In this document: positions 3,417 to 63,886 of the stretch, piece by piece
How positions within the stretch are numbered: position 1 is the first letter of the stretch
Layout: each line of letters opens with the position of its first letter
Source: Isosphaera sp.
GTDB taxonomy: Bacteria; Planctomycetota; Planctomycetia; Gemmatales; Gemmataceae
Assembly (NCBI GenBank): GCA_013822345.1
Contig: PNKH01000002.1
Coordinates: 1-64,000 of the forward strand
Length of the DNA: 64,000 bases
Reading direction: 5' to 3'
Program-made: the position numbers and the translations under genes
Notes under the pieces: generated by a model
What the model saw: the letters and a program-made list of their open reading frames with translations, nothing else
What the model was told of the DNA's origin: nothing
The model's database searches: none

Positions 3417-3486
3417 GGCGAACCGCGACCGTCAGGGAGCGGGTGTCCGTGGGTTGACACCCGCTCCCTGACGGTCGCGGTTCGCC
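3417..3486. repeat. NRDRQGAG-type palindromic element, family A copy 1
   Basis: A 70-bp hairpin with arms GGCGAACCGCGACCGTCAGG...GCGGGTGTC and the exact complement, separated by a short loop (CGTGGGTT). The same arms recur at 13512-13578, 37918-37986 (inside the megasynthase gene), 53173-53316 and 56935-57076. It lies between uppP and the sigma-factor gene, both on the plus strand. Confidence 0.93.
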
Positions 3487-13429: not shown

Positions 13430-13511
13430 GCCGGGTTGTAGCCGGCCGGCGGCGGGAGCGGAAGGGGAAGGCGTGGCGCGATCGGGGCGGTTCTGTTCGC
13501 GGGTTGTGGGT

Positions 13512-13578
13512 CACCCGCTCCCTGACGGTCGCGGTTCGCCTCGGTGCCGGGCGAACCGCGACCGTCAGGGAGCGGGTG
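13512..13578. repeat. NRDRQGAG-type palindromic element, family A copy 2
   Basis: A 67-bp hairpin has outer ends CACCCGCTCCCTGACGG and CCGTCAGGGAGCGGGTG and a loop of about 9 bases. The core arms match copy 1 but the element is in the opposite arrangement (the CACCC end is outermost). It sits eight bases before the stop codon of the methyltransferase pseudogene. Confidence 0.92.
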
Positions 13579-13586
13579 GCGGGCGT

Positions 13587-30086: not shown

Positions 30087-30111
30087 GGGGGCCGCGGCGG
30101 ACGCGGCCCCC
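30087..30111 (+). terminator. GC-rich hairpin after the S41 gene
   Basis: The stem GGGGGCCGC / GCGGCCCCC with a 7-base loop lies 12 bp after the stop codon and is followed by GACGTTTAG. The T-run is short, so termination may be weak. Confidence 0.5.
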
Positions 30112-30118
30112 GACGTTT

Positions 30119-30221
30119 AGAAGTGGTTTCAATGCCCGGCGAGCCGTGAGCGTGAGCGACCGGGGGGCGCCAACCTCCGGTCGCTCACGCTCCCGGCTCG
30201 CCGGGCATTGAAACCACTTCT
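30119..30221. repeat. Family B long palindromic element between convergent genes
   Basis: Outer arms AGAAGTGGTTTCAATGCCCG and CGGGCATTGAAACCACTTCT, plus inner arms GAGCGTGAGCGACCGG and CCGGTCGCTCACGCTC, make a 103-bp hairpin between the S41 and BON genes. The inner part is shared with 23341-23407 and, more distantly, with the in-gene copy at 21881-21937. Confidence 0.9.
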
Positions 30222-30263
30222 TAGCCGCGGCGCGGCTCAACGTTGCGTTGTGGGGGTCCCGGG

Positions 30264-34154: not shown

Positions 34155-34222
34155 GACACGGGTCGGCCCGCAGGGCGGTCGGCCGCGCCACCGGGACAAG
34201 GAGGTCCGAGCCGAGGAGTGTG

Positions 34223-37200
34223 ATGGAGCCGTGTGACCTGATCGTGTTGACCCCCGCCGGGAGCACGGACCCGTCCCTCGCGGTCGCGGCCGGGCGGGCC
34301 GGGGCCGCCGGGGTGCTCGACCTCGAAGCCGCCACCCGGACCGAGGATGCGTCCGCCGCCCTGGCCCGCCTGGCCCGCTTCCTCCCCGGACGGTTCGGGG
34401 TGCAACTGCCGGCCGACGCCGACCACCTCTTCACCCTCCTCGGCGCGAACAGGCCGGCCCGCGTCATCCTCGCCGGCGGCGACCCCGCCCGGCTCGAAGC
34501 CCGCGTCCGCGACCTCCGGGCCGCCGGGGTCGAAGTCCTGGTGTCGGCCGTGAGCCCGGCGGAAGCCGTCGCGGCGGCCGGGTTTGGTGCGGACGGGCTG
34601 ATCCTGAAAGGGCACGAGGCCGGCGGCCGGGTCGGGGCCGACACGTCGTTCGTGCTGGTCCAGAAGTGGCGGCGGCACGCCGACCGGTCCGGGCTGGCGG
34701 TCCCGTTCTGGGTGCAGGGCGGGGTCGGGCCGAACACCGCCGCCGCGTGCCTCGCCGCCGGCGCCCGCGGCGTCGTCCTCGACTCGCACGTCCTCCTCGC
34801 CCGGGAGTCCCCGCTTTCCGACGCGGCCCGCCGCCGGGTCGCCGGGCTCGACGGCGGCGAGACGGCCGTGCTCGGGTTGCGGCTCGGCGAGGCGTACCGC
34901 GTCTACGCCCGCCCCGACAGCCCCGCGGCGGCCGAGCTGGCGAAGGAAGAAGAACGCCTCGTCGCGTCCGAGCTGCCGGCCGACGCCAGGCTCGCCGTGT
35001 GGCGGGGGGCGGTGCGGGCGCGGGTCGCCGCCGACCCGGCCGACGGCGTCTGGTTGGTCGGTCAGGACGTGGCCGTCGCGGCCGGCCTGGCGGCGGCCGG
35101 GGTGACGGTCGCCGGGATCGTGCAGGCGGTGTGCGAGCGGGCGACCGCCAACCTCGCCGCGGCCGGCCGACTCCGGCACCTGTCGGAGGGCGGACCGCTC
35201 GCACAGTCGCACGGGACGCGGTATCCGATCCTCCAGGGCCCGATGACCCGGGTCAGCGACACGGCCGCGTTCGCCGCAGCGGTCGCCGACGGCGGGGCTC
35301 TGCCGTTCCTCGCGCTCGCCCTGCTCCGCAAGGCCGAGACGGAAGCCCTGCTGAAGGAGACGAAAGCGAAGCTGGGGTCGAAGCCGTGGGGCGTCGGCGT
35401 CCTCGGGTTCGTGCCGAACGAGATCCGGTCGGAGCAACTCGCGGCGATCCGCCAGACGAAGCCGCCCTTCGCGGTCATCGCCGGCGGCCGTCCGGACCAG
35501 GCGAAGGAACTCGAGGCCGTGGGCATCCCGACGTACCTGCACGTCCCGTCGCCGGGGCTGCTGCGGATGTTCCTGAAGGACGGGGCGAAGCGGTTCATCT
35601 TCGAGGGGCAGGAGTGCGGCGGGCACGTCGGCCCGCGGGCGAGTTTCGCCCTGTGGGAGACGATGGTCGGGGTGCTGACCGAGCACGTCGGGGCGAAGCC
35701 GGCCGACGACCTGCACGTCGTGTTCGCCGGCGGCATCCACGACAAGCTGTCGGCCGGGATGGTGGCGGCGCTGAGCGCCGGCCTGGCCGAGAAGGGGGTG
35801 AAGGTCGGGGTGCTGCTCGGCACCGCGTACCTGTTCACGCGGGAGGCGGTGGAGGCCGGGGCGATCACCGCCCGGTTCCAGAAGGAAGCCCTGGCGTGCG
35901 GCGACACGGTGCTCCTGGAGACCGGCCCGGGGCACGCGATCCGGTGCATCCCGACGCCGTACGCGGAGGCGTTCGAGGCGGAGAAGCGGCGGCTCCGGGC
36001 GGAGGGGAAGTCGCCGCTGGAGGTCGGCATCGCGCTGGAGCGGATGAACCTCGGCCGGCTCCGGGTGGCGAGCAAGGGCGTCGACCGGCCGGCCGGCGGG
36101 GGGGCGAACGGGACCGGCCTTGCGGCGGTGGCGGACGACGACCAGTTCGCCCGCGGGATGTACATGATCGGCCAGGTGGCGGCCCTGCGGGACACGGTCA
36201 CCACCGTCCCGGAGCTGCACGCCGACGTCTGCTCCGGTCTTCCCGCCTCCCGCCTCACGACTCCCGGCTCCCGGCTCCCGGCCCCGCCGCCGTGTGACGT
36301 GGCGATCGTCGGGCTGAGCTGCTTCTACCCGAAGGCCGGCGGGCTGTGGCCGTACTGGGAGAACATCCTCGCGAAGGCGAACGCGGTGGTCGAGATCCCG
36401 CCGACCCACTGGGACTGGCGGCCGTACTACGACCCGGACCCGCGGGCCAAGGACAAGATGGTGTCGAAGTGGGGCGGGTTCATGTCGGACGTCCCGTTCG
36501 ACCCGCTGAAGTTCGGCATCACCCCGAGGTCGATCCCGAACATCGAGCCGCTGCAGTTACTGCTGCTGGAGGCCGTCCACCAGGCGCTCGGGGACGCCGG
36601 CTACCTCGACCGTCCGTTCGCGCGCGAACGGACGTGCGCGATCCTGGGGGTGGGCGGCGGCGGGATGCCGCTGTCGGTCGCGTACGGGTTCCGCTCCTGC
36701 ATGCCGCTCATCGACTCGATCGGGGGCGTGCCGATCACCGGCGCGGAGATCGTCGAGCTGGGCAAGGACATGCTGCCCGAGTGGACCGAGGACTCGTTCC
36801 CCGGGATCCTGCTGAACGTGGCCGCCGGGCGGGTGTCGAACCGGTTCAACCTCGGCGGCCCGAACATGGCGATCGACGCCGCGTGCGGGTCGAGCCTGGC
36901 GGCACTGTACGCCGGGGTGCGGGAGCTGAACGACGGGACCAGCGACGTGGCGGTGGTGATGGGCGGGGACGCGGTGCAGACCCCCTACGCCTACGTCGCG
37001 TTCTCGAAGACGCACGCGCTCAGCCCGAAGGGCCGGTGCCGCCCGTTCGACGCCGGGGCCGACGGGATCGCGCTGGCCGAGGGCGTCGGGGTGGCGGTGC
37101 TGAAGCGGCTGGCCGACGCCGAGCGCGACGGCGACCGGATCTACGCCGTGGTGAAGGGCGTCGGGGCGAGTAGCGACGGGCGGGACAAGGGGCTGACGGC

Positions 37201-40200
37201 CCCGCGGGCGGAGGGGCAACTGCGGGCGCTGGAGCGGGCGTACGCCCAGGCCCGGGTGTCGCCGGCGCGGGTCGGGCTGGTCGAGGCGCACGGCACCGGC
37301 ACGGTGGTCGGCGACCAGACCGAGGCGCGGGCGATCGGGCAGCTGTTCCGCGACGCCGGCGGGCAGGCGCAGTCGTGCGCCCTCGGGTCGGTGAAGTCGA
37401 TGATCGGGCACTCGAAGTGCGCCGCCGGCCTGGCCGGGCTGATCAAGGCGGCATTCGCCCTGCACCACAAGGTGCTCCCGCCGACGCTGGTGGAGTCGCC
37501 GAACCCGCGGGCGAACCTGGACGGCGGGCCCCTGTACCTGAACACCGAGGCCCGGCCGTGGGTCCACGGGGCCGACCACCCGCGGACCGCCGGGGTGAGC
37601 GCGTTCGGGTTCGGCGGGACGAACTTCCACACCGTGCTGGAGGAGTATACCGGCGACTACCTGGACCGGCCGGCGACCGGGTTCCGCCGCTGGCCGGCGG
37701 AGCTGTTCGTGTGGCGGCGGGCGGACGTGGTCGGGCTGACATCCGACGTGAAGGCTTGCCGCGACGCGCTGGCCGCCGGGGCGTCGCCGGAGCTGCCTGA
37801 CCTCGCCGCCGCGGTGTGGCAGTCGAGCAAGGGCGGGGCCGGCCGGCCGACGCTGGCGGTGGTCGCGACCTCGCTCGACGACCTGCGCGACAAGCTCGAC
37901 GCCGCCCTGCAACTCCTGGCGAACCGCGACCGTCAGGGAGCGGGTGTCGGCGCCCCACACCCGCTCCCTGACGGTCGCGGTTCGCCGGTGCACTTCGCCG
38001 ACCCCCGCGGCGTCTATTACGCGCCGAAGCCCGAGGCCGCCCCGAAGGTCGCGTTCCTGTTCCCGGGCCAGGGGTCGCAGTACCCGGACATGCTGGCCCA
38101 GCAGGCGATGGCGTTCCCGGAGGTGCGGGCCGTCCTCGACCGGGCCGAGCGGACCCTCGCCCCCGACCTCGACAAGCCGCTCGGCCGGTTCGTCTACCCG
38201 CCGTCGGCGTTCACCCCGGAGCAGGAGGCCGCGAACCGGCACGCGCTGCAGCGGACGGAGGTGGCCCAGCCGGCGGTCGGGGCGGCGAGCCTCGGCATGT
38301 TCCGGCTGCTCGCCGCGCTCGGGGTAGAGGCCGATTACTTCGCCGGGCACAGCTACGGCGAGTACGCGGCGCTGGCGGCCGCCGGGGCGCTGTCCGAGGA
38401 CGACCTGGTCCGCTTGTCGCACCGGCGCGGGCGGGTGATCCGCGACGCGGCCGCCGCGGCGCCCGGCGGGATGCTCGCCGCCGACGCCGCCCCGGGCGCC
38501 CTGGAGCCGGTGCTGGCCGGCGTCGCCGGGGTGTGGGTGGCGAACCACAACTCGCCGACCCAGACGGTGCTCGCCGGGACCGAGGACGGGCTGAAGGCGG
38601 CGGCCGGGAAGCTGCAGGCGGCGGGCGTCCGGGCGCAGCGGATCCCGGTGGCGTGCGGGTTCCACTCGCCGCTGATCGCCGCGGCGAAGGAGCCGCTCGC
38701 CGCCGCGCTGGCCGAGGTGACGTTCGCGGCGCCGGCCAAGCCGGTGTTCTCGAACACGACCGCCACCCCTCACGACCCCGCGACGGTCGCCCGCCAGCTC
38801 GCCGACCACCTCGTCTCGCCGGTCCGGTTCGCGGACGAGGTCGCGGCGATGCACGCGGCCGGGGCGCGGGTGTTCGTGGAGGTCGGGCCGCAGGCGGTGC
38901 TGACCGGCCTCGCGGCGCAGACCCTCGCCGGCAAGCCGCACCTCGCGGTCGCGTCCGACATCAAGTCGCGGCCGGGGCTGGTGCAGTTGGCCCACCTGCT
39001 CGGACAGTTGCTCGCCGCCGGGGTGCCGGCCGACCTCGACCGGCTGTTCCGCGGCCGCGGGGTGCGGCCGCTCGACCTGGCGAAGCTCGGGCCGGACACC
39101 GGCAAGCCGAAGCACACCGCGACGACGTGGGTGGTGAACGGGGTGCGGAGCCGGCCGGTGAACGGCCCGGAGCCGCGGCTGCTCGGCCAGGCGCGGCCGG
39201 AGGGCGCGAAGCCGGCCGCGCTGAAGCCCGCCCCCGCCCCGGCGAACGGCACACCGCCCGGTCCCGCCACCCCGCCGAGCGTCCCGACCTCCCCCGTCGC
39301 CCCGCGAGCGAAGATGACCCCACCCGAGACACACCCGCTCCCGGCCCCGTCCGCGAACGGCGCCCACGCCCCGGCCCCGGACGGCGCGGCCGCCGTCATG
39401 GCCCGGTTCCAGGACGTGATGGCCAAGTTCCTCGACACCCAGCGGGGCGTCATGATGGCGTACCTCGGGGCCGGCGGCACGGCCCCGGCGGCCGCACCAC
39501 TGCCCGCCCCCGCCCGGCCGGCGTACCCGCTGAACGGCACCGCCAACGGGCACCCGGTCGTCCCGCCGGCAGTCGCGAACCGACTGGTCGTCCCCGAGCC
39601 GGCCGCCCGCCCGGTCGTCGCGGCGCCTCCGCCGGCCCCGGTCGCGCCGGTCGTCGCGGCGGCGGTGGCGAAGCCCGCCGCCCGGCTCGACCGCGACACG
39701 CTGCTCGCCAAGCTCCTCGACCTCGTCAGCGAGCGGACCGGATACCCGAAGGAGGCCCTCAGCATCGACCTCGACCTCGAGGCCGACCTCGGGGTCGATT
39801 CGATCAAGCGGGTCGAGATCCTCGGGACGCTGGCCGAGGGGATCGGGACCGGGGCGGACGGGAAGGCGCCGGCCCTGGAGATGGAGAAGCTGTCGGTCCT
39901 CAAGACCCTCCGGACGATCGCCGACTACGTCGTGGAGGTGCTGGAGGCCGGCCCCGCGGACGAACCGCCGGCCGCCCTTCCCGCCCCCGCCCGCAACGGC
40001 GACTTCCACCCCGGGGCGCGGGAAGGCGAGGTGCAGCGGCTCGTCGTCCGCCTGGTCGACGCCCCGCCGCCGGTCCGCCCGCGGTTCGCCCCGCCGGCCG
40101 GGGCGGTCGTCCTGACCGACGACGGCCGCGGCACCGCCCGCGAGCTGGCCGACCGCCTCGCCGACCTCGACGTGAAGACCGTCCTCCTCCGCCCCGACGC

Positions 40201-41641
40201 CGACCTCACCGACCCCGCCACCGTGACGGAGCTGCTCGGCCGGTTGCGCGACGAGCACGGCCCGGTGTCCGGGCTGATCCACCTGCTGCCGCTCGCCGAG
40301 CCGCCGGACGGCGAGTCGCCGAACGACCGGGCGCGGCGCGAGGTGAAGTCGCTGTACCTGCTGGCCCGCGGGCTGGAGGCGGACATCCGCGCCGCCGGGA
40401 AGGACAGCCCGGCGGTGCTGCTGGCGGTCACCGGGATGGGCGGGCGGATGGGGTTCGGCGGCGACCGGCCGGCCGACTTCTCCGCCGGCCACGGCGGGGT
40501 CGCCGGGTTCACCAAGTGCCTCGGGTACGAGTGGCCGGAGGTCACCGTCCGGGTGGTGGACGTGGACCCCGAGACCCCGGCGACGCACCTGGCCGAGGAC
40601 CTGCTGGCGGAGCTCGGCGACGCCGACGGGCCGTTCGAGGTCGGCCGGGCCGCCGGCCGGCGGACGACGTGGCAGGTCGAGCCCGGCCCGCTCACCACCG
40701 ACGCCCCGGCGGTCGAGCTCGGCCCGGACTCGACGGTGCTGATCACCGGCGGGGCGCGCGGCATCACGGCGAAGATCGCGCTCGAACTCGCCACGCGGTA
40801 CAAGCCGCGGCTGGTGCTGGTCGGCAGCTCCCCGGAGCCGGCGGCCGAGCACCCCGACACCACCCCGCTGACCACCCCGGCCGAGCTGAAGGCGGCGCTG
40901 ACCAAGCTGCTCGGGGCGGACGGGAAGCCGGCGGCGGTCGAGGCGGCGTACCGGCGGCTCCTGAAGGACCGCGAGATTCGGGCCAACCTCGACGCGATCC
41001 GGGCCGCCGGGTCGGTGGTCGATTACCGCGCCGTGGACGTGCGCGACGCGGCGTTCGGGGCGCTGATCGACGAGTTGCAGGCGGCCGGCGGGATCGCCGG
41101 GGTGATCCACGGGGCCGGGGTGATCGAGGACAAGCTGCTGAAGGACAAGACGCCGGAGTCGTTCGACCGGGTGTTCGGAACGAAGGTGGACAGCGCGCTG
41201 ACACTGGCCGCGAAGCTCGACCCGGCGAAGGTGAAGTTCCTGGCCCTGTTCGCCTCCATCACGAGCAGGTACGGGAACCGCGGGCAGTCGGACTACGCCG
41301 CCGCGAACGAGGTGCTGAGCAAGCTGGCGTGCGACCTCGACCGGCGGTGGCCGGGGCGGGTGGTGTCGGTCGCGTGGGGGCCGTGGGCCGAGGTCGGGAT
41401 GGTGGCCGAGTTGGAGAAGCACCTGGTCGCCCGCGGGCTGAAGCTGATCGCCCCGGCGGTCGGGGCCGGGTTCGCGGTGGACGAGGTGGTGTACGGGGCG
41501 AAGGGCGAGCCGGAGGTGGTGGTGGCCGGCGGGACGGAGGCCCCGGCCCGCGGGGCGAAGGTGCCGCCCGCCCCCGGCGCCGACACCCCGGTCCCGACCG
41601 GCCCGAACGGCTACCCGATCGCCGCCGGCGCCGGCGGCTGA
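34223..41641 (+). CDS. Type I polyketide/secondary-lipid megasynthase: NMO-NMO-KS-AT-ACP-KR (Pfa-like)
   Basis: This 2472-residue multidomain synthase has, in order: two nitronate-monooxygenase/PfaD-like enoylreductase barrels (about 1-310, GHEAGGRVG; about 325-660, QGPMTR and EGQECGGHVGP); a ketosynthase (about 691-1135) with C888 in DAACGSSLAA, H1023 in EAHGTGT and H1063 in KSMIGHSK; an acyltransferase (about 1275-1600) with S1377 in GHSYGEY; a proline/alanine-rich linker; one ACP with S1860 in DLGVDSIKRVE; and a ketoreductase (about 2165-2440) with LITGGARGI and Y2358 in GQSDYAAANE. Two linkers carry repeat-derived peptides, at about 1232-1255 and before the KS. Classical PfaA has several ACPs and a separate PfaD; here the reductases are fused and duplicated. 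The ATG at 34223 follows GAGGAG. The product is unknown. Confidence 0.93.
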   Translation: MEPCDLIVLTPAGSTDPSLAVAAGRAGAAGVLDLEAATRTEDASAALARLARFLPGRFGVQLPADADHLFTLLGANRPARVILAGGDPARLEARVRDLRAAGVEVLVSAVSPAEAVAAAGFGADGLILKGHEAGGRVGADTSFVLVQKWRRHADRSGLAVPFWVQGGVGPNTAAACLAAGARGVVLDSHVLLARESPLSDAARRRVAGLDGGETAVLGLRLGEAYRVYARPDSPAAAELAKEEERLVASELPADARLAVWRGAVRARVAADPADGVWLVGQDVAVAAGLAAAGVTVAGIVQAVCERATANLAAAGRLRHLSEGGPLAQSHGTRYPILQGPMTRVSDTAAFAAAVADGGALPFLALALLRKAETEALLKETKAKLGSKPWGVGVLGFVPNEIRSEQLAAIRQTKPPFAVIAGGRPDQAKELEAVGIPTYLHVPSPGLLRMFLKDGAKRFIFEGQECGGHVGPRASFALWETMVGVLTEHVGAKPADDLHVVFAGGIHDKLSAGMVAALSAGLAEKGVKVGVLLGTAYLFTREAVEAGAITARFQKEALACGDTVLLETGPGHAIRCIPTPYAEAFEAEKRRLRAEGKSPLEVGIALERMNLGRLRVASKGVDRPAGGGANGTGLAAVADDDQFARGMYMIGQVAALRDTVTTVPELHADVCSGLPASRLTTPGSRLPAPPPCDVAIVGLSCFYPKAGGLWPYWENILAKANAVVEIPPTHWDWRPYYDPDPRAKDKMVSKWGGFMSDVPFDPLKFGITPRSIPNIEPLQLLLLEAVHQALGDAGYLDRPFARERTCAILGVGGGGMPLSVAYGFRSCMPLIDSIGGVPITGAEIVELGKDMLPEWTEDSFPGILLNVAAGRVSNRFNLGGPNMAIDAACGSSLAALYAGVRELNDGTSDVAVVMGGDAVQTPYAYVAFSKTHALSPKGRCRPFDAGADGIALAEGVGVAVLKRLADAERDGDRIYAVVKGVGASSDGRDKGLTAPRAEGQLRALERAYAQARVSPARVGLVEAHGTGTVVGDQTEARAIGQLFRDAGGQAQSCALGSVKSMIGHSKCAAGLAGLIKAAFALHHKVLPPTLVESPNPRANLDGGPLYLNTEARPWVHGADHPRTAGVSAFGFGGTNFHTVLEEYTGDYLDRPATGFRRWPAELFVWRRADVVGLTSDVKACRDALAAGASPELPDLAAAVWQSSKGGAGRPTLAVVATSLDDLRDKLDAALQLLANRDRQGAGVGAPHPLPDGRGSPVHFADPRGVYYAPKPEAAPKVAFLFPGQGSQYPDMLAQQAMAFPEVRAVLDRAERTLAPDLDKPLGRFVYPPSAFTPEQEAANRHALQRTEVAQPAVGAASLGMFRLLAALGVEADYFAGHSYGEYAALAAAGALSEDDLVRLSHRRGRVIRDAAAAAPGGMLAADAAPGALEPVLAGVAGVWVANHNSPTQTVLAGTEDGLKAAAGKLQAAGVRAQRIPVACGFHSPLIAAAKEPLAAALAEVTFAAPAKPVFSNTTATPHDPATVARQLADHLVSPVRFADEVAAMHAAGARVFVEVGPQAVLTGLAAQTLAGKPHLAVASDIKSRPGLVQLAHLLGQLLAAGVPADLDRLFRGRGVRPLDLAKLGPDTGKPKHTATTWVVNGVRSRPVNGPEPRLLGQARPEGAKPAALKPAPAPANGTPPGPATPPSVPTSPVAPRAKMTPPETHPLPAPSANGAHAPAPDGAAAVMARFQDVMAKFLDTQRGVMMAYLGAGGTAPAAAPLPAPARPAYPLNGTANGHPVVPPAVANRLVVPEPAARPVVAAPPPAPVAPVVAAAVAKPAARLDRDTLLAKLLDLVSERTGYPKEALSIDLDLEADLGVDSIKRVEILGTLAEGIGTGADGKAPALEMEKLSVLKTLRTIADYVVEVLEAGPADEPPAALPAPARNGDFHPGAREGEVQRLVVRLVDAPPPVRPRFAPPAGAVVLTDDGRGTARELADRLADLDVKTVLLRPDADLTDPATVTELLGRLRDEHGPVSGLIHLLPLAEPPDGESPNDRARREVKSLYLLARGLEADIRAAGKDSPAVLLAVTGMGGRMGFGGDRPADFSAGHGGVAGFTKCLGYEWPEVTVRVVDVDPETPATHLAEDLLAELGDADGPFEVGRAAGRRTTWQVEPGPLTTDAPAVELGPDSTVLITGGARGITAKIALELATRYKPRLVLVGSSPEPAAEHPDTTPLTTPAELKAALTKLLGADGKPAAVEAAYRRLLKDREIRANLDAIRAAGSVVDYRAVDVRDAAFGALIDELQAAGGIAGVIHGAGVIEDKLLKDKTPESFDRVFGTKVDSALTLAAKLDPAKVKFLALFASITSRYGNRGQSDYAAANEVLSKLACDLDRRWPGRVVSVAWGPWAEVGMVAELEKHLVARGLKLIAPAVGAGFAVDEVVYGAKGEPEVVVAGGTEAPARGAKVPPAPGADTPVPTGPNGYPIAAGAGG
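37918..37986. repeat. Family A palindromic element inserted in frame inside the megasynthase gene
   Basis: A 69-bp (23-codon) hairpin, GGCGAACCGCGACCGTCAGG...CCTGACGGTCGCGGTTCGCC, is the same as the intergenic copy at 3417-3486. It encodes NRDRQGAG and HPLPDGRGSP in the linker between the ketosynthase and acyltransferase and leaves the frame open. Confidence 0.9.
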
Positions 41642-53056: not shown

Positions 53057-53163
53057 GCCCGGGGTTGAAACCCCGGGCTATTCTCGGCGACCCCTTCGGG
53101 GTCCAAGGCATTTTGACCCCGAAGGGGTCACCGGCAATAGCCCGGGGTTTCAACCCCGGGTGC
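53057..53163. repeat. GGGGTTGAAACCCCGGG-type element (family D copy 2)
   Basis: The left part CCGGGGTTGAAACCCCGGGC and right part GCCCGGGGTTTCAACCCCGG make the outer pair. Two internal hairpins, GACCCCTTCGGGGTC and GACCCCGAAGGGGTC, are mirror partners of each other. It is directly followed by a family A long element. Confidence 0.9.
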
Positions 53164-53172
53164 CCGACCAAT

Positions 53173-53316
53173 CAGGGCCGTTCGGTGTGGGGGTTTGGGT
53201 CGGTGTCACCCGCTCCCGGACGGTCGCGGTTCGCCGAGCGGTTGGCGAACCGCGACCGTCCGGGAGCGGGTGCGACGCCGCCCAGACCGCCCAACCCCCC
53301 ACACCGAACGGCCCTG
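53173..53316. repeat. Family A long palindromic element, copy 4
   Basis: Outer arms CAGGGCCGTTCGGTGTGGGG and CCCCACACCGAACGGCCCTG flank the family A core (CACCCGCTCCCGGACGG...CCGTCCGGGAGCGGGTG). Compared with copies 1-3, both arms carry CCGGG/CCCGG in place of CAGGG/CCCTG. The PQQ-propeller gene starts 91 bp downstream. Confidence 0.92.
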
Positions 53317-53407: not shown

Positions 53408-54823
53408 ATGGCGGCGCGTGCGGTGCTGGCGGTCGGGCTGTGCGGGCTCCTTTCCGCCGCCGGGCGGGGCGGCGACTGGCCGCAGTTCCGCGGGGACGGG
53501 ACCGGCGTCATGGACGCCGCCAAGGTCGCGGACGTGTGGGACGCCAAGAAGAACGTCGCCTGGAAGGCCGCCGTCCCCGGCGTCGCCTGGTCCTGCCCGA
53601 TCGTCGTCGGCGACAAGGTGTTCGTCACCACCGCCTTCTCCGAGAAGCAGCAGAAGCCGAAGGGCGGGTTCGGCAGCTTCGGGGGCGGCGGGGGCGGGCC
53701 GGGCGGCGGGTTCGGGTCGAAGAAGGGCCCGGACGCGACGTACCAGTTCAAGGTGATCTGCCTCGACGCCGGCACCGGCAAGCAGGTGTGGGAGAAGACG
53801 GCGGTCGAGGCGAAGCCGAAGGTCCCGACCCACGCCAGCAACACCTACGCGACCGAGACCCCGGTGTCCGACGGCGAGCGGGTGTACGCGTACTTCGGCA
53901 TGACTGGCCTGTTCTGCTTCGACCTCACCGGCAAGGAACTCTGGAAGAAGGACCTCGGGGCGTTCTCGATGCAGTTCGGGTGGGGCACCGCCAGCTCGCC
54001 GGTGCTCCACAACGGCAAGCTGTTCGTCCAGTGCGACAACGAGGAGAAGTCGTTCCTCGTCGCGCTCGACGGCAAGACCGGGAACGAGGTGTGGAGGGAG
54101 TCCCGTGCGGAGCGGTCCGGGTGGAGCACCCCGTTCGTGTGGAAGACCAAGGACCGGACCGACCTGGTGGTCGGCGGGAGCCAGAAGGTCCGCGGGTACG
54201 ACCCGGCGACCGGCAAGGTGGTGTGGGAGCTGGCGGTCGGCGGCGGGCAGTGCTCGGCGTCCCCGACCGGCGACGCGGACATGCTGTACTTCGGCCTCGG
54301 TGGCGGGGGGGGTGGGTTCGGCGGCCGGCCGGGCGGGCCGGGTGGTGGGGGCGGTCAGCCCGGCCCCGGCGGGCGGACGGGCGGGGGCGGGCTGTTCGCG
54401 GTCAAGGCCGGGGCGACCGGGGACATCACCCCGAAGGCCGGCGAGACGACCAGCGCCGGCGTCGCGTGGTCGGCGAAGTCCGGGCCGTCGGCCCCGTCCC
54501 CGCTGCTGTACCAGGGGCACCTGTACGTCCTCGACCGGAACGGCGGGATGGTCACCTGCTACGACGCGAAGTCCGGGAAGGCGGAGTACAGCCGGGAGCG
54601 GATCCCGCAGGCGAAGGCGTTCTGGGCGTCCCCGTGGGCGGCGAACGGGAAGGTGTTCTGCCTGGACGAGGACGGGGTGACGCACGTCCTGAAGGCCGGG
54701 CCGGAGTTCGAGGTGGTCGGGAAGAACTCGCTCGGCCGGGAGATGTACTGGTCGACCCCGGCGGCCGCCGACGGGAAGCTGTTCGTCCGCGGGGTGGACA
54801 GCCTGTACTGCATCAAGCCGTGA
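53408..54823 (+). CDS. Secreted PQQ-like beta-propeller protein
   Basis: The 471-residue protein has a signal peptide (AARAVLAVGLCGLLSAAGRGG). Its propeller blades read DWPQFRGDGTGV, NVAWKAAVPGVAWSCPIVVGDKVFVTTAF, VICLDAGTGKQVWEK, LFCFDLTGKELWKKDL, LVALDGKTGNEVWRE, GYDPATGKVVWEL and TCYDAKSGKAEY, the W-x-x-x-x-G-K-x-x-W pattern of PQQ enzyme-type propellers. Two glycine-rich loops ([15 protein letters not shown] and GGFGGRPGGPGGGGG) interrupt blades. Such proteins are very common in Gemmataceae and are probably periplasmic scaffolds, not dehydrogenases. CGGAGG precedes the ATG at 53408. Confidence 0.9.
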   Translation: MAARAVLAVGLCGLLSAAGRGGDWPQFRGDGTGVMDAAKVADVWDAKKNVAWKAAVPGVAWSCPIVVGDKVFVTTAFSEKQQKPKGGFGSFGGGGGGPGGGFGSKKGPDATYQFKVICLDAGTGKQVWEKTAVEAKPKVPTHASNTYATETPVSDGERVYAYFGMTGLFCFDLTGKELWKKDLGAFSMQFGWGTASSPVLHNGKLFVQCDNEEKSFLVALDGKTGNEVWRESRAERSGWSTPFVWKTKDRTDLVVGGSQKVRGYDPATGKVVWELAVGGGQCSASPTGDADMLYFGLGGGGGGFGGRPGGPGGGGGQPGPGGRTGGGGLFAVKAGATGDITPKAGETTSAGVAWSAKSGPSAPSPLLYQGHLYVLDRNGGMVTCYDAKSGKAEYSRERIPQAKAFWASPWAANGKVFCLDEDGVTHVLKAGPEFEVVGKNSLGREMYWSTPAAADGKLFVRGVDSLYCIKP

Positions 54824-54835
54824 CGGATCGGGGAA

Positions 54836-54961
54836 CGAAGCGATCGGAACGCGGATGAAGAGGATGAAAGGCGGGATGCAGAGGATCAGACGGGACGTTG
54901 ATTTTGTCCGATCCTCTGCATCCGGTTATTGATCCTCTTCATCCGCGTTCCGATCGCTTCG
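54836..54961. repeat. GGATGAAGAGGAT-type inverted repeat (family I)
   Basis: The left part CGAAGCGATCGGAACGCGGA followed by TGAAGAGGAT pairs with the right part ATCCTCTTCATCCGCGTTCCGATCGCTTCG-type sequence at 54931-54961. An inner pair, GGATGCAGAGGATC/GATCCTCTGCATCC, lies at 54874-54923. It fills the gap between the PQQ-propeller and beta-helix genes. Confidence 0.9.
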
Positions 54962-55027
54962 TCTGCGGACCCTTCGCGCGGGGCCGGCCGGCGGGTACGC
55001 TCGGGCCACCCCGCACGGAGACCGCGC

Positions 55028-56934: not shown

Positions 56935-57076
56935 CAGGGCCGTCCGGTGTGGGGGGTTGGGTCGGTGTCACCCGCTCCCGGACGGTCGCGGTTCGCCCCG
57001 GCGCCCGGCGAACCGCGACCGTCCGGGAGCGGGTGCGACGCCCAGACCGCCCACACCCCCACACCGAACGGCCCTG
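56935..57076. repeat. Family A long palindromic element, copy 5
   Basis: It has the same outer/inner organisation as copy 4 (outer CCAGGGCCGTCCGGTGTGGG against CACACCGAACGGCCCTGG, inner CCCGCTCCCGGACGG against CCGTCCGGGAGCGGG). As in copy 4, both inner arms have the CCGGG/CCCGG form. The TolC-like gene follows. Confidence 0.92.
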
Positions 57077-59521: not shown

Positions 59522-59530
59522 CAACCCGGG

Positions 59531-59590
59531 TCCGAGCCCGAGCGCCAGCGAGGGTCCGGCCGACAACCCTCGCTGGCGCTCGGGCTCGGA
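59531..59590. repeat. Perfect 24-bp-arm hairpin (family J) between convergent genes
   Basis: TCCGAGCCCGAGCGCCAGCG..AGGG at 59531-59554 pairs perfectly with 59567-59590 around a 12-base loop. It lies between convergent genes and could serve as a bidirectional terminator, although it lacks T-tracts. Confidence 0.93.
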
Positions 59591-59597
59591 CGCAGCC

Positions 59598-63761: not shown

Positions 63762-63772
63762 TCGACCCCGTT

Positions 63773-63851
63773 TAGCCGCGACGCGGAGTCGGCGGGGCGG
63801 AGCGCGGCTGTATGGCCCGCGCTCCGCCCCGCCGACTCCGCGTCGCGGCTA
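63773..63851. repeat. Perfect 35-bp-arm hairpin (family K)
   Basis: TAGCCGCGACGCGGAGTCGG..CGGGGCGGAGCGCGG pairs perfectly with its complement around a 9-base loop (CTGTATGGC). The arm end TAGCCGCG also occurs next to the family B element at 30221. It lies between two plus-strand genes. Confidence 0.95.
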
Positions 63852-63886
63852 CACCGTTCCCTGTCGCCCGCCGCCGGAACCTCCCC

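Follow-up and report, generated by a model that had tools for sequence, protein, structure and literature searches.

We found that a near-perfect palindrome lies in frame within a megasynthase gene in the window (the whole 64,000-nucleotide stretch of Isosphaera sp. DNA that was analysed), and that it belongs to a repeat family, here called family A, that is abundant in the same genome. This family very probably represents a mobile palindrome of the REP/RAYT class that is tolerated as a flexible loop in proteins, resembling the Rickettsia palindromic elements (RPEs) in behaviour without being one of them; we infer its translation, neutrality and transposition, and the enzyme responsible.

The host gene (34220–41641, forward strand, from a predicted start codon) encodes a protein of 2,473 aa. 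Profile matches detected ketosynthase, acyltransferase, ACP and ketoreductase domains (KS-AT-ACP-KR) together with an N-terminal NMO-like region, on the basis of which we classify the protein as a PfaA-like synthase. The ketosynthase domain (PF00109 + PF02801) spans 36296–37489 and the acyltransferase domain (PF00698) spans 38054–38932, both on the forward strand, the latter beginning about 70 bp past the element. The initial annotation had described an in-frame 69-bp palindrome in this KS-AT gene, and our analysis confirmed it as a stop-free element of family A, in the 'out' arrangement, with exact limits at 37918–37986 of the forward strand. Palindrome detection gave a left arm, GGCGAACCGCGACCGTCAGGGAGCGGGTGTCGG, at 37918–37950 (forward strand) and a right arm, the left arm inverted, at 37954–37986 (reverse strand); the arms, of 33 nt each, are 97% complementary and separated by a 3-nt spacer. 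Folded as single-stranded DNA, the element reached -48 kcal/mol, compared with -18.2 ± 2.6 kcal/mol for shuffled sequences (z = -11.4). Its 69 bp contain no stop in the megasynthase frame and encode ANRDRQGAGVGAPHPLPDGRGSP, with the translated reading LANRDRQGAGVGAPHPLPDGRGSP within the 2,473-aa open reading frame. The element had also been called a near-exact copy of the one at 3417–3486, which holds for the arm sequence, identical in both, and not for the loop, which differs in that 70-bp copy. Although the assembly is a draft in 226 contigs, an assembly artefact or a pseudogene can scarcely be entertained: about 1,200 codons of open frame, normal in codon usage, extend to either side, the element is short, and many genes contain copies whose loops are distinct.

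Using a 500-aa piece of the megasynthase as query, we aligned the KS-AT region of 16 same-genus orthologues, a comparison that the initial annotation had suggested. The NRDRQGAG/PLPDGRGSP peptide was absent from all 16 and so, as judged from this alignment, the megasynthase element is a lineage-specific gain. A contig scan for further KS-AT orthologues returned mainly distant proteins and no additional close set. Relative to its congeners the megasynthase has gained a net 57 nt in the KS-AT alignment, not 69 nt; the shortfall of about 12 nt means that native sequence was replaced or lost, or that it overlaps the element ends. The net gain in ThrC, of about 66 nt, is likewise unequal to the element length. 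Where the element starts with GGCGAACC, two of the closest relatives have CTAGCGAAGCC and CTGGCGAAACC, and the native megasynthase sequence TGGCGAA(G/A)CC resembles this element end. A similar native match to the element end was sought at the HisF empty site and not found, and a target-site rule drawn from empty sites was dropped because the megasynthase resemblance is unmatched in HisF. No target-site duplication, as would mark a MITE moved by a DDE transposase, was recognizable in the megasynthase and ThrC comparisons, among which no closely related empty site shows an exact junction. A structure model of the KS-AT region, of low confidence and read for secondary structure only, places the insert between helix 259–277 and strands 299–308, directly before the acyltransferase. 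The earlier placement in an interdomain linker needs correcting: going by this model, the insert probably occupies the last helix–strand loop of the KS-AT linker (adaptor) domain and not a free tether.

The 17-nt arm start GGCGAACCGCGACCGTC, allowing at most one mismatch, gave 331 matches in the 7.47-Mb genome (73% G+C), which correspond to about 165 elements; the reversed control gave none, and family A is far beyond chance. Its members are mostly 66–72 bp long. Deviations from the consensus that are common to both arms numbered 37, compared with 2.6 in shuffles (maximum 13), and the loops are hypervariable, with 68 of 69 'out' loops distinct. This co-variation of the arms, together with the distinct loops, is consistent with the whole palindrome being copied as one, as REPINs are (PMC3116915). 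The window copy at 3417–3486 is intergenic, in the 'out' arrangement, 6 nt past the end of the preceding coding sequence. Inside-out ('in') copies, which carry CACCCGCTCC on the outside and GGCGAACC at the loop, lie in an intergenic position at 13510–13580, between divergent genes at 53205–53274 and upstream of a gene at 56967–57037. The 'in' copies mostly precede genes, at distances from tens of nt to about 200 nt; some stand between divergent genes, their flanking bases are shared, and none of 15 was intragenic. The 'out' copies often lie 5–40 nt behind stop codons. Palindromes of many families share this DNA: across the window and 20 regions of the same genome (426 kb), hairpins with arms of at least 20 nt numbered 103, about one per 4 kb, and several have outer GGCGAACC or GAGCC ends in common around different inner stems. 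Long palindromes of other families, with arms of 38–73 nt, lie in the window at 2409–2502, 30110–30230, 53058–53160, 54819–54978 and 63770–63854.

We sampled 84 of the roughly 165 family A elements by region of the genome, calling genes with a purpose-built codon model trained on this genome from the megasynthase and naming hosts by profile. Under this model the genome is 84.5% coding, with a GC3 of 0.98. Fourteen of the sampled copies (17%) were intragenic (9 of 63 in the first round), compared with about 84% expected if insertion were random, so most genic insertions are lost or avoided. No gene was disrupted by family A among the 84 sampled copies: all 14 intragenic copies are in frame and open, and none uses the phase of the element that contains TGA. 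The hosts named by profile are HisF, ThrC, GltB, an ArgD-like aminotransferase, a RarA-like ATPase, a ModF-like tandem ABC protein, a YdiJ/GlcD-like FAD oxidase, TreY (malto-oligosyltrehalose synthase), PurL, QueG and a TIGR03936 protein; the remaining hosts are the megasynthase, one protein with a weak match alone and a probable membrane protein. The first half of the insert reads NRDRQGAG or a near variant in 10 of the 14 and the second half PLPDGRGSP or a near variant in 12, with these peptides or close variants in both halves in 9. The initial annotation had also proposed looking for these peptides in unrelated proteins, and the outcome was positive: NRDRQGAG/PLPDGRGSP or the other open phase of the element recurs, always in frame, in at least 13 more genes of the genome.

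These counts bear on whether the mature protein lacks the insert, the element having been eliminated ahead of translation or in its course (at the RNA level, by bypass or as a self-removing peptide). A very stable hairpin in a coding frame and conserved enzymes as hosts would suit removal. We nevertheless consider it very unlikely, since a removed element would need neither to keep the frame nor to be free of stops, as all 14 copies are despite the TGA-containing phase, and since an apparent half-element is still in frame in GltB of genome G003. The strong preference for one peptide phase, and the recurrence of inserts in the same loops of sister species, could also mean that the inserts are selected for a function, such as mRNA folding, pausing at domain boundaries or a useful loop, and are not merely tolerated. 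Such selection is improbable, however, given that the host functions are unrelated, that unrelated palindromes occur at the same site and that many congeners are insert-free, and the phase preference is equally explained by survival of the more hydrophilic peptide.

If family A is instead tolerated as a flexible loop, genic copies would survive only where the frame is kept, no stop is introduced and the insertion falls in a surface loop or linker. Surviving copies would be translated as a Gly/Pro-rich, hydrophilic and probably disordered loop (NRDRQGAG...PLPDGRGSP), and the megasynthase copy of the window would be one of these, probably situated in the final KS-AT linker-domain loop. HisF has a single match in the genome, so the tagged HisF is probably the working protein. 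In its structure model (mean pLDDT 84.5) the barrel is preserved and residues 140–171 score below 50, so the insert probably forms a disordered loop. The earlier proposal that family A can be translated as a harmless linker is supported, its presumed harmlessness being suggested by the intact core enzymes.

Each of the four host genes tested carries different palindromes in congeners, in most cases at the loop where family A sits. At the ThrC loop, palindromes occur in G003, G011 and G005, with fold z-scores of -10.5, -9.6 and -6.2 (simple shuffles), and at the HisF loop a palindrome occurs in G003 (fold z = -9.8). The GltB loop has palindromes in the genome of the window (G000) and in G001 and G010, those of G001 and G010 detected as hairpins. 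In the megasynthase, G014 has a palindrome at the same loop and G003 has one about 35 residues upstream. On a three-protein tree, insert-free species are placed between several carriers: G009 and G005 are empty at the KS-AT site beside G014, and G006, the sister of G011, is insert-free at this ThrC loop. Because carriers are separated by insert-free species, the tree pattern favours repeated insertion. A single ancestral insertion at each loop, whose sequence was afterwards replaced through gene conversion among palindrome families, would account for the ThrC inserts of G000, G003 and G011, which have common GGCGAACC ends at the same point, and the same two readings have been proposed for Rickettsia (PMC3767692). 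The insert-free species between carriers argue against an ancestral insertion, as do the palindromes of G005 ThrC and G003 HisF, which have no ends in common with family A; we regard it as rather unlikely, with an appreciable chance of being correct.

At the GltB loop, G003 (L365) apparently retains one leftover arm, GGCGAACCCCGCCCGCAAGGGCGGGTG, and G011 (L366) retains GGCGAACC alone, which may reflect a possible in-frame decay to half-elements. Other ThrC loops hold in-frame, repeat-like inserts in L142 (G011), L149 (G002) and L147 (G006), for example GRGSQGEPAGGSPSQGG and GAGGGIGGNPRGVPPTGG. We consider it about as likely as not that RAYT-class palindromes keep supplying the core enzymes of this genus with new loops. 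Unrelated palindromes would repeatedly have entered the same permissive loops (ThrC, GltB, HisF and KS-AT) in sister species and then decayed in frame to half-elements, and much of the variation in loop length among orthologues would be mobile-element debris.

Y1 (RAYT/TIRYT-type) transposase genes that belong to a single clade have family-A-like sister palindromes at their flanks in G031, G004, G003 and G013. In G031, one such gene (L167, 1276–1851) has ACCGAGCCGCGACCGTAAGGGAGCGG hairpins on both sides; for its relatives in G004, G003 and G013 the flanking palindromes are of the ACGAGCCGCGACCGCAAGGGAGCGG type. None of the five Y1 genes in the genome that carries the window (assembly 95% complete), all examined as candidate cognate transposases, is flanked by family A (GGCGAACCGCGACCGTCAGGGAGCGG). 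The only Y1 gene of that clade in this genome (L187) has another palindrome family on both sides, a member of which, GTCCGAGCCCGAGCGCCAGCGAGGGT, lies at 59530–59591 of the window; a further Y1 gene adjoins GTAG-containing palindromes (GGTAGCCAGGGGTGGAG; L061, 1257–1383), the typical arrangement of tagged REPs. Family A is therefore probably best regarded as related to a RAYT/TIRYT system and as either non-autonomous or orphaned, and its cognate enzyme could be hidden in the approximately 5% missing from the assembly. Beyond this genome, where a 15-nt arm piece has 338 matches, most congeners are at background, with 57 matches in G015 and 94 in G031, a member of another genus of the same family. 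Among 392 genomes of the phylum, about 10 show amplification of the core CGCGACCGTCAGGGAGCG, in a patchy pattern, with 311, 124 and 89 matches in three of them and controls near 0.

We propose that family A is a short, non-autonomous REP/RAYT palindrome (REPIN- or TIRtron-like) consisting of two inverted arms of about 30 nt and a hypervariable loop. It would most likely have moved as a single-stranded hairpin on which a Y1 HUH transposase acts, a suggestion prompted by the sister palindromes that lie beside genes of this type in related genomes.

In-frame insertion of palindromes is best known from Rickettsia, an obligate intracellular bacterium, where relaxed selection can be blamed. Here the genome is large and G+C-rich, the hosts include core enzymes, copies number about 165 and many close relatives are available for comparison, which makes possible direct tests of the tolerance of proteins to mobile elements, of permissive loops and of the origin of new protein segments from selfish DNA. 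A selfish DNA element can, on this account, ride inside proteins as a floppy extra loop. For annotation, segments reading NRDRQGAG, PLPDGRGSP, RTATVRERV or SLTVAVR should be treated as repeat-derived and not as domains.

RPEs (RPE-1 to RPE-7) are palindromes that have inserted, with the frame preserved, into numerous unrelated protein genes, often conserved ones, and orthologues can carry different types at the same locus; they are 105–146 bp (or 100–150 bp) long and known from Rickettsia and Wolbachia (PMC2229807, PMC3767692). The RPE-like behaviour noted in the initial annotation fits these descriptions (PMC2229807, PMC3767692), as the 14 intragenic copies are all in frame in unrelated genes and differing palindromes occur at orthologous loci. 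Family A differs in length (about 69 bp), in sequence, in its host, a planctomycete-type genome of 73% G+C, and in having sister palindromes that flank Y1 genes. We therefore rejected its assignment as an RPE on grounds of sequence, length, host and apparent transposase association, and its core is patchy across the same phylum.

GTAG/CGTC-tagged REPs are short palindromes, arranged as head-to-head or tail-to-tail dimers and mostly near gene 3′ ends, with a minority in open reading frames, often as dimers encoding 20–30 aa; several bacteria have such intragenic REPs, Opitutus terrae and R. conorii among them (PMC3733652). Family A likewise comprises short palindromes, many near gene 3′ ends and a minority inside open reading frames. 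However, GTAG and GTGG are absent from both strands of its consensus arm GGCGAACCGCGACCGTCAGGGAGCGGGTG, and its CGTC sits within a stem of about 30 bp (compared with 5–13 bp) and is not terminal and unpaired. It was accordingly rejected as a CGTC-tagged REP, defined by an unpaired terminal CGTC, a stem of 8–9 bp and a loop of 4–5 nt.

REPINs consist of two inverted units with a poorly conserved spacer, show compensatory arm changes and are linked to a Y1 transposase (PMC3116915). Family A shares the inverted pair, the variable spacer and the compensatory changes, whereas REPINs are reported from extragenic space, family A lacks the GT[AG]G foot, and a cognate RAYT was not found in its own 95%-complete assembly. 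TIRYT/TIRtron systems comprise Y1 genes flanked by long inverted repeats, many of which contain a GGGGWSAS motif (PMC3733652). Y1 genes of the relevant clade similarly have long self-complementary palindromes next to them, in most cases on both sides and with matching families, although GGGGWSAS is absent from the family A consensus arm. Our search of the open-access literature found no report of intragenic palindromes in this bacterial family. The kind of element is already known; against that literature, what appear to be new are family A itself, its range of core-enzyme hosts and the density of same-loop insertion within one genus.
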